Of a stretch of DNA of 64,000 nt, positions 25,972 through 47,170 are shown one piece after another. The number at the start of each line of letters is the position of its first letter. The first letter of the stretch is position 1. This DNA is from Mariprofundus sp. NF (lineage in GTDB: Bacteria > Pseudomonadota > Zetaproteobacteria > Mariprofundales > Mariprofundaceae). The notes under the pieces were generated by a model. The model had not been told where the DNA came from, made no database searches, and saw only the letters and a program-made list of their open reading frames with translations. The position numbers and the translations under genes are program-made. Location: the NCBI RefSeq assembly GCF_013387455.1, contig NZ_VWNC01000001.1, forward strand, positions 372,001 to 436,000. Reading direction: 5' to 3'.

Positions 25972-25983
25972 AGTGTTGCTCCA

Positions 25984-26426
25984 TTTTAGACGCAGATGAA
26001 CGCAGATATTCGCAGATTTAACTTCTGCTCTCTATCTTGCGCCGGATTTCCACCCGTTTCTCTGCGAAGTTAATCAATAGTCCGATTTCAAGGCCTGTTG
26101 CCTTGAGATAGTTGACCAGTTGAACTTCATGAACCGGCAGGATATGCGATACTGATTTCAATTCCACTATGATTTTATCATTCACCACCAGATCAGCGAA
26201 ATATTCACCAACACATTTCCCATGATATGTGACGTGCAAAGGTTTCTGCTGTTCTACTTTTAGTCCAATTCTGGTCAGTTCAATAACCATTGCATTCTCG
26301 TAAACTTTTTCCAAAAAGCCTGAACCCAGAGCATTGTGAACCGTGAATGCAGCCTGAATAATCTGTTCAGTCAGCGCTGCATGCTTATATCCATCTGTGT
26401 CCATCTGCGTTAATCAGCGTCTAAAA
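25984..26426 (-). mobile_element. GxxExxY element bounded by inverted 10-bp iteron arrays
   Basis: Left arm: TTTTAGA at 25984-25990 and units CGCAGATGAA, CGCAGATATT, CGCAGATTTA at 25991-26020. Right arm (reverse complement): TTTTAGA at 26426-26420 and units CGCTGATTAA, CGCAGATGGA, CACAGATGGA at 26419-26390. The only gene inside, GxxExxY, begins in one arm and ends in the other. The outer right end also encodes the last residues and TAA of ribF; the outer left end touches the ileS ribosome binding site. No transposase and no clear target duplication are seen, so mobility is inferred from structure and from the gene-less copy at guaB-guaA. Confidence 0.7.
26018..26404 (-). CDS. GxxExxY protein, PD-(D/E)XK nuclease-like
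   Basis: A 128-residue protein of the GxxExxY family. The name-giving motif is Gly29-Glu32-Tyr35 in [10 protein letters not shown]; the nuclease-like core has Asp71 and Glu81-x-Lys83 in [17 protein letters not shown], all intact. Such proteins are predicted to have the PD-(D/E)XK fold, but no function is established to my knowledge. The start codon and first residues (MDTDGYKH) are encoded by the iterons, no ribosome binding site is evident, and the stop TAA is in the opposite array. It sits in the transcription direction of ribF and ileS. Confidence 0.9.
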
Positions 26427-27342
26427 TCTGCCTGGCCATATCACAATCTTTGGCGATCTGGGCGGCCAGATCGGCGTGACCGGTGAATTTGCGATCCTCA
26501 CGAATACGCTGAATAAAGCTGACATTCAGGCACTGGTCATAGAGATCAGGTGAATCATCCAGCAGGTGGGTCTCCAGCAGCAGGGTGCGGCCATTGAAGG
26601 TGGGGCGGTAACCAAGATAAGCGGCACCATTCCACTGTTTTGATCTGTCTCTGGTATTGGCACGTACGGCATAGATACCAACCGGAGGGTGTGCCAGATC
26701 AGCCACATCAACATTGGCGGTCGGGAAATTCATTTCGCGGCCCCGTTTTTCACCGTGCAGTACTTTACCGGCAATCGAGTAGTCGCGACCAAGCAGTGTT
26801 TTAGCCAGTTCAAAATCAGCGGCTTCCACCGCCGAGCGGATACGCGAGCTGGAGACGACTGCCCCCATCATCTCAAAGGCAGCAGCTACCGTAACGTTAA
26901 ATCCAACCTCATCACCGAGATTGCGCAGATCATCAACATGACCTTCGCGATCATGGCCAAAGGCAAAATCGTAACCGACATGCATATGTTTGAAGGCGAA
27001 TGTTTCATAGAGGGTGGAAGAGAACTTTTCGGCAGGCCATCCAGCCAGCTCTTTGGTGAACTCCAACAGCAGTACGGCATTCACACCTTCAGCTTCAAGG
27101 TAGCCCAGTTTCTCCTGTAGATGACACAGACGGCGCGGTGCCTCTTCAGGATAGAGTACGGCGCGCGGATGCGGTTCAAAGGTGACCACAATCGTTGGCC
27201 CGTCGGCATTCATGGCGTGGCCGCGTGTCTCGGCCAGCACCTGCTCATGACCCATGTGCACGCCATCGAAGTTGCCGAGGGTGATGGCACCGCCGCGAAT
27301 TTCGGAGGCGCGAGCCTCATCCCATGAGTGAAAAATCTGCAT
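26410..27342 (-). CDS. ribF: Bifunctional riboflavin kinase/FAD synthetase
   Basis: A 310-residue enzyme (313 in E. coli) making FMN and FAD. The N-terminal FAD synthetase nucleotidyltransferase has LGNFDGVHMGH and SSSRIRSAV; the C-terminal riboflavin kinase has GRDYSIAGKV, NFPTANV and WNGAAYLGYRPTF. Start set at 27342 by homology; no good ribosome binding site is seen and the frame is open to 27402. The last residues LDAD and the stop lie in the iteron array of the element separating it from ileS, a normally adjacent gene. Confidence 0.95.
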   Translation of the reverse strand: MQIFHSWDEARASEIRGGAITLGNFDGVHMGHEQVLAETRGHAMNADGPTIVVTFEPHPRAVLYPEEAPRRLCHLQEKLGYLEAEGVNAVLLLEFTKELAGWPAEKFSSTLYETFAFKHMHVGYDFAFGHDREGHVDDLRNLGDEVGFNVTVAAAFEMMGAVVSSSRIRSAVEAADFELAKTLLGRDYSIAGKVLHGEKRGREMNFPTANVDVADLAHPPVGIYAVRANTRDRSKQWNGAAYLGYRPTFNGRTLLLETHLLDDSPDLYDQCLNVSFIQRIREDRKFTGHADLAAQIAKDCDMARQILDAD

Positions 27343-38195: not shown

Positions 38196-38332
38196 GAACC
38201 ACGAATGGCCCTGACCACCTTCTCTGCATAGTGGTACATTCACCTTGTAGACACAAATGAGCACGAATTTAAAGATATTCAACCAGTACGGCCTCTCTTA
38301 TTCGTGTTGATTTGTGTGCATTCGTGGTTCGA
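38196..38332. repeat. Diverged inverted iteron array between ispH and purB
   Basis: GAACCACGAATGG at 38196-38208 and units CACAAATGAG, CACGAATTTA near 38251-38270 face a right arm at 38298-38332 whose reverse complement reads CACGAATGCA, CACAAATCAA, CACGAATAA. The 10-bp spacing and CxCxxAT core resemble the guaB-guaA and ribF-ileS arrays, with a shifted consensus. No gene lies inside. It fills the space between the convergent ispH and purB. Confidence 0.7.
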
Positions 38333-46671: not shown

Positions 46672-46747
46672 GGGCGCTTAGCTCAGCTGGGAGAGCAACG
46701 GCCTTACAAGCCGTAGGTCGCAGGTTCGAACCCTGCAGCGCCCACCA
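46672..46747 (+). tRNA. tRNA-Val (TAC anticodon), copy 1
   Basis: A 76-nt cloverleaf with encoded CCA; acceptor GGGCGCT / AGCGCCC, anticodon loop CTTACAA giving TAC. Identical to the copy at 46993. The 5' end directly follows the hupB terminator, with no room for an independent promoter. Confidence 0.97.
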
Positions 46748-46753
46748 TTTATA

Positions 46754-46786
46754 AAGGCTCTGTGCATCTGATGCGGAGCCTTTTTT
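46754..46786 (+). terminator. Terminator after tRNA-Val copy 1
   Basis: AAGGCTC / GAGCCTT stem with a 15-base loop and a run of six T. Confidence 0.7.
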
Positions 46787-46801
46787 CCGGTCAACTTTTT
46801 A

Positions 46802-46831
46802 TTGGTTGATTTTCGGGGAGTAAGTTATTAC
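46802..46831 (+). promoter_or_regulatory. Candidate promoter of tRNA-Asp copy 1
   Basis: TTGGTT and TATTAC with an 18-base spacer, followed by a GC-rich discriminator (GCGCCCCC) of the kind seen at stringently controlled stable-RNA promoters, 17 bases before the tRNA. Confidence 0.45.
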
Positions 46832-46848
46832 TTTGCGCCCCCACCGCT

Positions 46849-46925
46849 GGAGCGGTAGTTCAGTTGGTTAGAATGCCGGCCTGTCACGCCGGAGGTCGCG
46901 GGTTCGAGTCCCGTCCGCTCCGCCA
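46849..46925 (+). tRNA. tRNA-Asp (GTC anticodon), copy 1
   Basis: A 77-nt cloverleaf with encoded CCA; acceptor GGAGCGG / CCGCTCC, anticodon loop CTGTCAC giving GTC. Identical to the copy at 47094. Confidence 0.97.
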
Positions 46926-46931
46926 CATAGT

Positions 46932-46959
46932 GAGCCCCTGTCATGGGGGCTCTTTTTTT
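46932..46959 (+). terminator. Terminator after tRNA-Asp copy 1
   Basis: GAGCCCC / GGGGCTC stem and a run of seven T. tRNA-Val copy 2 begins only 34 bases later. Confidence 0.75.
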
Positions 46960-46992
46960 AATCCCGGCAGGTTGATTTAACCTGCTGAAGAT

Positions 46993-47068
46993 GGGCGCTT
47001 AGCTCAGCTGGGAGAGCAACGGCCTTACAAGCCGTAGGTCGCAGGTTCGAACCCTGCAGCGCCCACCA
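46993..47068 (+). tRNA. tRNA-Val (TAC anticodon), copy 2
   Basis: Identical over 76 nt to the copy at 46672. Between the preceding terminator and this gene is only a short palindrome (CAGGTTGATTTAACCTG) and no recognisable promoter. Confidence 0.97.
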
Positions 47069-47093
47069 TCTTGAAAACACTGATTACCTCAAT

Positions 47094-47170
47094 GGAGCGG
47101 TAGTTCAGTTGGTTAGAATGCCGGCCTGTCACGCCGGAGGTCGCGGGTTCGAGTCCCGTCCGCTCCGCCA
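47094..47170 (+). tRNA. tRNA-Asp (GTC anticodon), copy 2
   Basis: Identical over 77 nt to the copy at 46849; 25 bases after tRNA-Val copy 2, so certainly on the same transcript. Confidence 0.97.

Follow-up and report, generated by a model that had tools for sequence, protein, structure and literature searches.

The gap between ribF and ileS in Mariprofundus sp. NF is occupied, in the 64,000-nucleotide stretch of DNA analysed here (the window), by a gene of the GxxExxY family framed by two inverted arrays of short iterons (Table 1). The two arms (25983-26017 and 26393-26427) form a 35-nt inverted repeat, 83% complementary and with a spacing of 375 nt, and each of them has the same edge and then three inward-pointing 10-bp iterons of type ACGCAGATNA. 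The gene begins (ATG) inside the right array (ATGGACACAGATG) and ends (TAA) where the left array has its edge. The original prediction had described this arrangement, including the encoding of the ribF end by the unit and the position of the left array next to the GGAG of ileS, and each of these points is confirmed. The overlap with ribF is not general, because in the nearest relative (G080) the end of ribF falls just before the array. The single ORF of the unit matches PF13366 only and neither a DDE nor a serine/tyrosine transposase is present, which supports the earlier claim that the unit lacks a transposase; the claim that the gene and its arrays belong to one unit is likewise supported. 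A chance origin of the arrays is rejected: it is excluded by the inverted repeat of the arms, by the family-wide flank scores given below and by the abundance of the iteron pair CGCAGATNNNCGCAGAT, of which, with up to two mismatches allowed, the window contains 11 occurrences where 0.74 would be expected (none of 100 shuffles reaches 11).

Table 1. Positions in the window of the GxxExxY unit, of the adjoining gene ends and of two gene-less elements.
Feature	Position	Strand
ileS ribosome-binding GGAG, directly beyond the left array	25979..25982	-
Left (ileS-side) iteron array TTTTAGACGCAGATGAACGCAGATATTCGCAGAT: TTTTAGAC edge, then three inward 10-bp iterons	25984..26017	+
GxxExxY gene (TIGR04256 / PF13366 PDDEXK_3), 128 aa, predicted PD-(D/E)XK nuclease	26018..26404	-
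Right (ribF-side) iteron array, opposite orientation; minus-strand reading ATTTTAGACGCTGATTAACGCAGATGGACACAGAT	26393..26427	-
Last codons and stop of ribF (LDAD, TAA), provided by the edge of the right array	26410..26424	-
Gene-less element with the iteron of the ribF-ileS unit, in the guaB-guaA gap; inverted arrays ~90 nt apart	19588..19745	
Gene-less element of the CACGAAT iteron type (that of the flanks of L003, another GxxExxY gene of the genome)	~38197..38331	

The GxxExxY protein

The protein is a clear member of TIGR04256 (153.5 bits, cut-off 35) and of PF13366 (147.1 bits, cut-off 22) and contains the GxxExxY motif (G29, E32, Y35) together with the D and ExK residues. Throughout a set of 71 homologues, G27, G29, E32, Y35, D71, K83, Q95 and Y99 are invariant and E81 is nearly so; Asp71, Glu81 and Lys83, which had been singled out as intact nuclease-like residues, are indeed intact. 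A sequence search of the solved structures matched nothing and the fold is therefore placed by model: in the AlphaFold prediction (pLDDT 92) the protein adopts a compact PD-(D/E)XK fold, for which the best Foldseek match is 4ic1 (SSO0001; E 5.7e-5, VIA Z 9.8), which we take to be a Cas4, lambda-type exonucleases being matched as well. The core fold and the D...ExK...QxxxY residues are those of Cas4/RecB proteins, and the model predicts a minimal Cas4/RecB-like PD-(D/E)XK nuclease whose active site is intact. The protein differs from Cas4 in its much shorter length and in the absence of the four-cysteine iron-sulphur site, and the unit is devoid of CRISPR genes; since its 128 residues include a single cysteine, it is not an iron-sulphur Cas4. 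Compared with the orthologue L004, dN is about 0.16 and dS about 1.31 (dN/dS about 0.12), the divergence being mostly silent, and the copy in the window is, as judged from these substitutions, under purifying selection.

Inverted iteron flanks across the family

Most of the GxxExxY homologues surveyed have such flanks, so that the survey proposed with the original prediction did not refute it. The first 80 related loci, picked by similarity to this protein, come from many bacterial phyla and from methanogenic archaea, and the set of 182 distinct genes is composed of the first loci, of most genes from 26 genomes and of a few further relatives, many of the compared genomes being metagenome bins. 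The inverted similarity of the flanks exceeds the 99th percentile of dinucleotide shuffles for 129 of the 182 genes, which represent about 20 phyla as a whole set, and a tandem iteron pair is present in at least one flank of 127 genes (3 after shuffling) and in both flanks of 88 (0 after shuffling). For the first 83 genes, the median inverted-flank score is 17.5; distant flanks reach 8.5 and mismatched ones 9. A clear inverted match is absent in roughly a quarter of the genes, many of which visibly bear arrays of another type. The iteron types of the family include ACAGGATTA, ACACGGATT, ACRCAGATNA, ACRCTGAT, CACGAATGA and others of the common form CRCNGAN.

Three loci of G022 (C14:39384-40145, C13:30822-31571 and C19:121820-122566) encode fused tandem GxxExxY domains in one frame, with lengths of 278-295 aa. 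Plasmids or phages as the main vehicle of the family are rejected, their records providing few matches (8 plasmid records, plus a single halovirus present in two phage records).

Iteron type and protein lineage

Across phyla, the iteron type goes with the lineage of the protein rather than with the host. The nearest protein from another phylum has the same iteron class in 69 of 77 cases (mean 44 and maximum 63 over 2000 shuffles), and the protein tree, whose branch support is modest and which contains two long rows, displays 3 changes of iteron class against 40 changes of phylum, with a shuffled mean of 20. Between phyla, the similarity of the iterons rises from 0.11 for proteins below 40% identity to 0.69 for those of at least 65%, and its mean is 0.16 for paralogues of the same genome. 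A host sequence background behind the shared iterons is rejected, because the paralogues found within one genome do not share them. Pairs from different phyla with at least 62% identity have saturated fourfold sites (30% identical) and yet share iterons in their flanks; the similarity of these flanks drops to the background once the iteron words are masked. Neutral hitchhiking of the flanks with the gene is unlikely, because the iterons persist where the silent sites are saturated, and this persistence therefore points to a constraint that links the protein to its iteron, i.e. a cognate recognition. Since the iteron type follows the protein rather than the host, we consider it very probable, from these comparisons, that each GxxExxY protein recognises its own iterons.

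The CAGGAT and CRCNGAT classes are told apart by alignment columns among which are positions 90, 101, 106, 115 and 125-127; these would be candidates for the readout of the DNA. At the znu site of G085, the GxxExxY gene L241 is accompanied by apparently complete gene-less elements on both sides; its iterons are CGCGGAT/CGCAGAT, against CGCGAAT in its relatives L003 and G080, and an iteron switch within one orthologue set is possible.

Gene-less elements and the abundance of arrays

Three GxxExxY genes are present in the genome, each with a different iteron. The other two are also framed by inverted arrays, made of CACGAAGGA-like and CGCGAATGAA-like iterons, and the types named for the three proteins are CGCAGAT, CACGAAT and CACGAAGG. 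These two further genes and the two gene-less elements of Table 1 had escaped the original prediction. Arrays are found away from these genes as well: a search for exact CAGAT-type pairs gives 45 in the genome and 4 with the reversed control, and seven delimited gene-less elements of 83-172 bp have two inverted arrays each, their interiors being mostly unrelated to one another and without resemblance to the GxxExxY gene. The formation of gene-less elements by internal deletion is suggested at ribF-ileS only. Four gene-less elements folded as single-stranded DNA have z-scores from -3.1 to -7.3. The element between guaB and guaA forms a long hairpin (z -5.4), and its site exists without the element in G089. 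No known RNA family was found at the arrays by a search of Rfam, which matched tRNAs alone in the window.

The second gene-less element of Table 1 has a TTCACCTTG segment nested inside, and another, unrelated palindromic repeat, CAAGGTGAATTGCGC...GCCCTGGGGCA, is nested within several gene-less elements (L104, L088 and L111, respectively at C5:6590-7060, C3:223150-223370 and C6:176950-177200 of G000). Two long, near-perfect tandem runs of the 10-bp iteron occur in G000, one at C1:232589-232695 (L093), with no inverted partner in the stretch read, and one at C6:144387-144463 (L200), with weak inverted partners only; these runs suggest a local expansion of the arrays. The window also contains four tRNA genes at 46672-47167, which seem to be one pair occurring twice in alternation, the scores being identical.

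A GxxExxY gene is present in 45 of the 78 genomes of the class, and the number of arrays, obtained by simple pattern searches, varies with the matching gene. Among the Zetaproteobacteria, CAGAT pairs reach a median of 9 where the gene studied here has a close relative in the genome, of 3.5 where another GxxExxY gene is present and of 1 where there is none (p 8e-6 for the first group against the last). Within the genus, the median number of CGAAT pairs is 16.5 in the presence of any GxxExxY gene and 2 in its absence (p 0.014). In the set of 26 genomes, those with genes flanked by the corresponding iteron contain 10.0 CAGGAT pairs per Mb against 2.8 for those without (p 0.007), and 4.2 CGGAT pairs per Mb against 1.5 (p 0.002). 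Exceptions are G014, G021 and G023 (the genomes of L044, L047 and L055), metagenome bins with 61, 109 and 117 CAGGAT pairs in which no CAGGAT-flanked GxxExxY gene was found; G038 is a further exception, with many arrays and no matching gene found. An extreme amplification is observed in G087, a member of the genus, which harbours 203 CGAAT and 51 CAGAT pairs in 2.9 Mb.

Filled and empty sites

Comparison with related genomes supports an origin of the units by insertion. G080, G072, G082 and G079 lack the element at C6:176992-177163, the flanking genes being directly joined there, and the sites of other gene-less elements are empty in G072, G074 and G082. The pheA-hisC gap measures 8-9 bp in G072, G074 and G089; it is occupied by a GxxExxY unit in this genome and in G079, while G080, G082, G085 and G092 have gene-less elements of other types there. 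This genome shares the znu unit with G080 and G085, and eight others lack it. None of these comparisons of filled and empty sites, the flanks of which have diverged, revealed a clear target-site duplication. The pheA-hisC gap (L202, L234-L237, L247, L249, L250, L252) appears as an insertion hot spot that receives different elements in different species.

The ribF-ileS gap houses orthologues at 72-75% in another two genera, represented by G098 (from which L004 comes) and by G069, and L004 has arrays on both sides. Within the genus, the copy of G080 carries a frameshift, G079, G085 and G093 retain 189-198 nt of the 3' half of the gene, G082 and G090 keep remnants of 49-51 nt from the vicinity of ExK, and G072 and G074 have none, so that the comparison of relatives proposed at the outset provides intact, frameshifted, truncated and absent copies. 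Because orthologues share the gap in another genus and decayed copies persist in several species, the ribF-ileS copy is, on this sequence record, old rather than freshly mobile. The suggestion of an unrecognised mobile unit stands in part: the structure of the unit, the generality of its flanks, the empty sites and the lack of a transposase are in its favour, but the copy at ribF-ileS itself is not a recent arrival.

Discussion

The model that we propose for these repeats is that of a system resembling REP/RAYT, in which a nuclease of the restriction fold would replace the HUH transposase, and we regard it as probable. Within a family of short mobile repeats, the GxxExxY unit would be the 'master', the form that bears the gene, its ends being marked by the two inverted iteron arrays, and each GxxExxY nuclease would recognise its own 9-10-bp iteron, of the general form ACRCNGAT or ACAGGAT. 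The gene-less elements, which consist of two inverted arrays around short unrelated DNA, would be non-autonomous derivatives and would spread by means of the resident GxxExxY enzyme, in the way that REPs depend on RAYT transposases. The protein would bind the arrays, or the hairpin formed by the single-stranded arrays, and would then cut or nick the DNA at or near them, after which host repair or template switching would copy or insert the element into short intergenic gaps. That the cutting by the GxxExxY protein drives the spread is the less secure part of this model, for which our analysis gives slightly better than even chances. The wider proposal, that bacteria and archaea share a class of mobile DNA whose sole dedicated enzyme is a minimal PD-(D/E)XK nuclease, which would recognise tandem iterons at both ends and mobilise gene-less elements via host repair while enzyme and repeat specificities diverge together, is put forward tentatively, its chances being a little below even.

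The covariation of protein and iteron fits operators as well as cutting sites. The arrays could thus be operators through which GxxExxY, or a partner, regulates its own and neighbouring genes without moving any DNA, the scattered arrays having been recruited over time, and both the overlap of an array with the start codon of the gene and the location of others between genes such as guaB and guaA would agree with such a role. This explanation is nevertheless unlikely: the gene-less copies are edged blocks of 80-170 bp with paired inverted arrays, located where sister species have an empty site, the same site bears different types in different species, such a spread of blocks is unusual for operators, and the active site of the nuclease is conserved.

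It is equally unlikely that another enzyme, a RAYT/IS200-type or other host transposase, moves the elements and that GxxExxY is a passenger or an exploiter of the repeats. A search with PF01797 finds a Y1 transposase in most of the array-bearing genomes tested, including one weak RAYT-like gene in this genome, but the presence of Y1 alone does not bring arrays (G074 has a strong Y1 and few arrays) and the iteron type follows the GxxExxY lineage, not the host, across phyla. A RAYT as resident mover is rejected, the RAYT-like gene of this genome (L343) having no such iterons within 1.5 kb. Less probable still is a role of GxxExxY in host repair, recombination or defence, like that of Rpn or Cas4, with arrays that steer or restrain it and copies useful to the host; purifying selection, the long residence at ribF-ileS in several genera and a fold like that of Cas4 and of the lambda-type exonucleases agree with such a role, but the gene is patchy in the class and frequently decays, one genome has several paralogues with different iterons, and the matches to defence profiles are only weak.

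The closest known counterpart of the proposed nuclease-driven system is REP/RAYT, in which REP/BIME repeats are paired with RAYT transposases. The RAYT (TnpA_REP) genes are flanked by inverted REPs, with which they coevolve and whose abundance correlates with the enzyme (PMC2817692), and the recognition of REPs by RAYT has been studied (PMC8266576). Both systems, the REP one being also called 'REPtron', combine a single gene enclosed by a short repeat in inverted orientation, non-autonomous inverted pairs that are dispersed over intergenic gaps and form hairpins, a covariation of repeat and enzyme and a repeat number that tracks the cognate enzyme, here with the exceptions of the three metagenome bins. 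They differ by the enzyme, a PD-(D/E)XK nuclease (PF13366) instead of an HUH tyrosine transposase (PF01797), the only match to which in this genome lies elsewhere and without such repeats, and by the repeat, a tandem array of 9-10-bp iterons instead of a single tagged stem-loop. The CGTC-tagged REPs, palindromic families of several phyla reported without a dedicated transposase (PMC3733652), have stems of 8-9 bp and loops of 4-5 nt rather than iteron arrays, and classical IS/MITE pairs rely on the transposases that the GxxExxY unit lacks. The Rpn proteins (YhgA-like, transposase_31) are PD-(D/E)XK nucleases with several paralogues per genome that promote RecA-independent recombination and for which little or no sequence specificity is reported (PMC5350276). 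They belong to a different family, not known to be framed by cognate repeats, and offer a possible model for insertion by template switching.

The GxxExxY family itself is known, and what this work adds is its link to cognate iteron arrays; searches of the literature for the family name, the accessions and the repeat strings, the coverage of which is partial so that an earlier description is possible, returned no link to repeats and no function.

In conclusion, our observations attach a family that is annotated in many environmental genomes without a function to a set of cognate repeats, and thereby give it a testable role. They offer a candidate enzyme for abundant intergenic repeats of the ATCCTGT, ATCCGTGT and ATCTGCGT types, and a large natural collection of pairs of proteins and DNA targets from which a specificity code could be derived. 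If the nuclease drives the spread of these elements, it would represent a second way, independent of the RAYTs, to move REP-like repeats.
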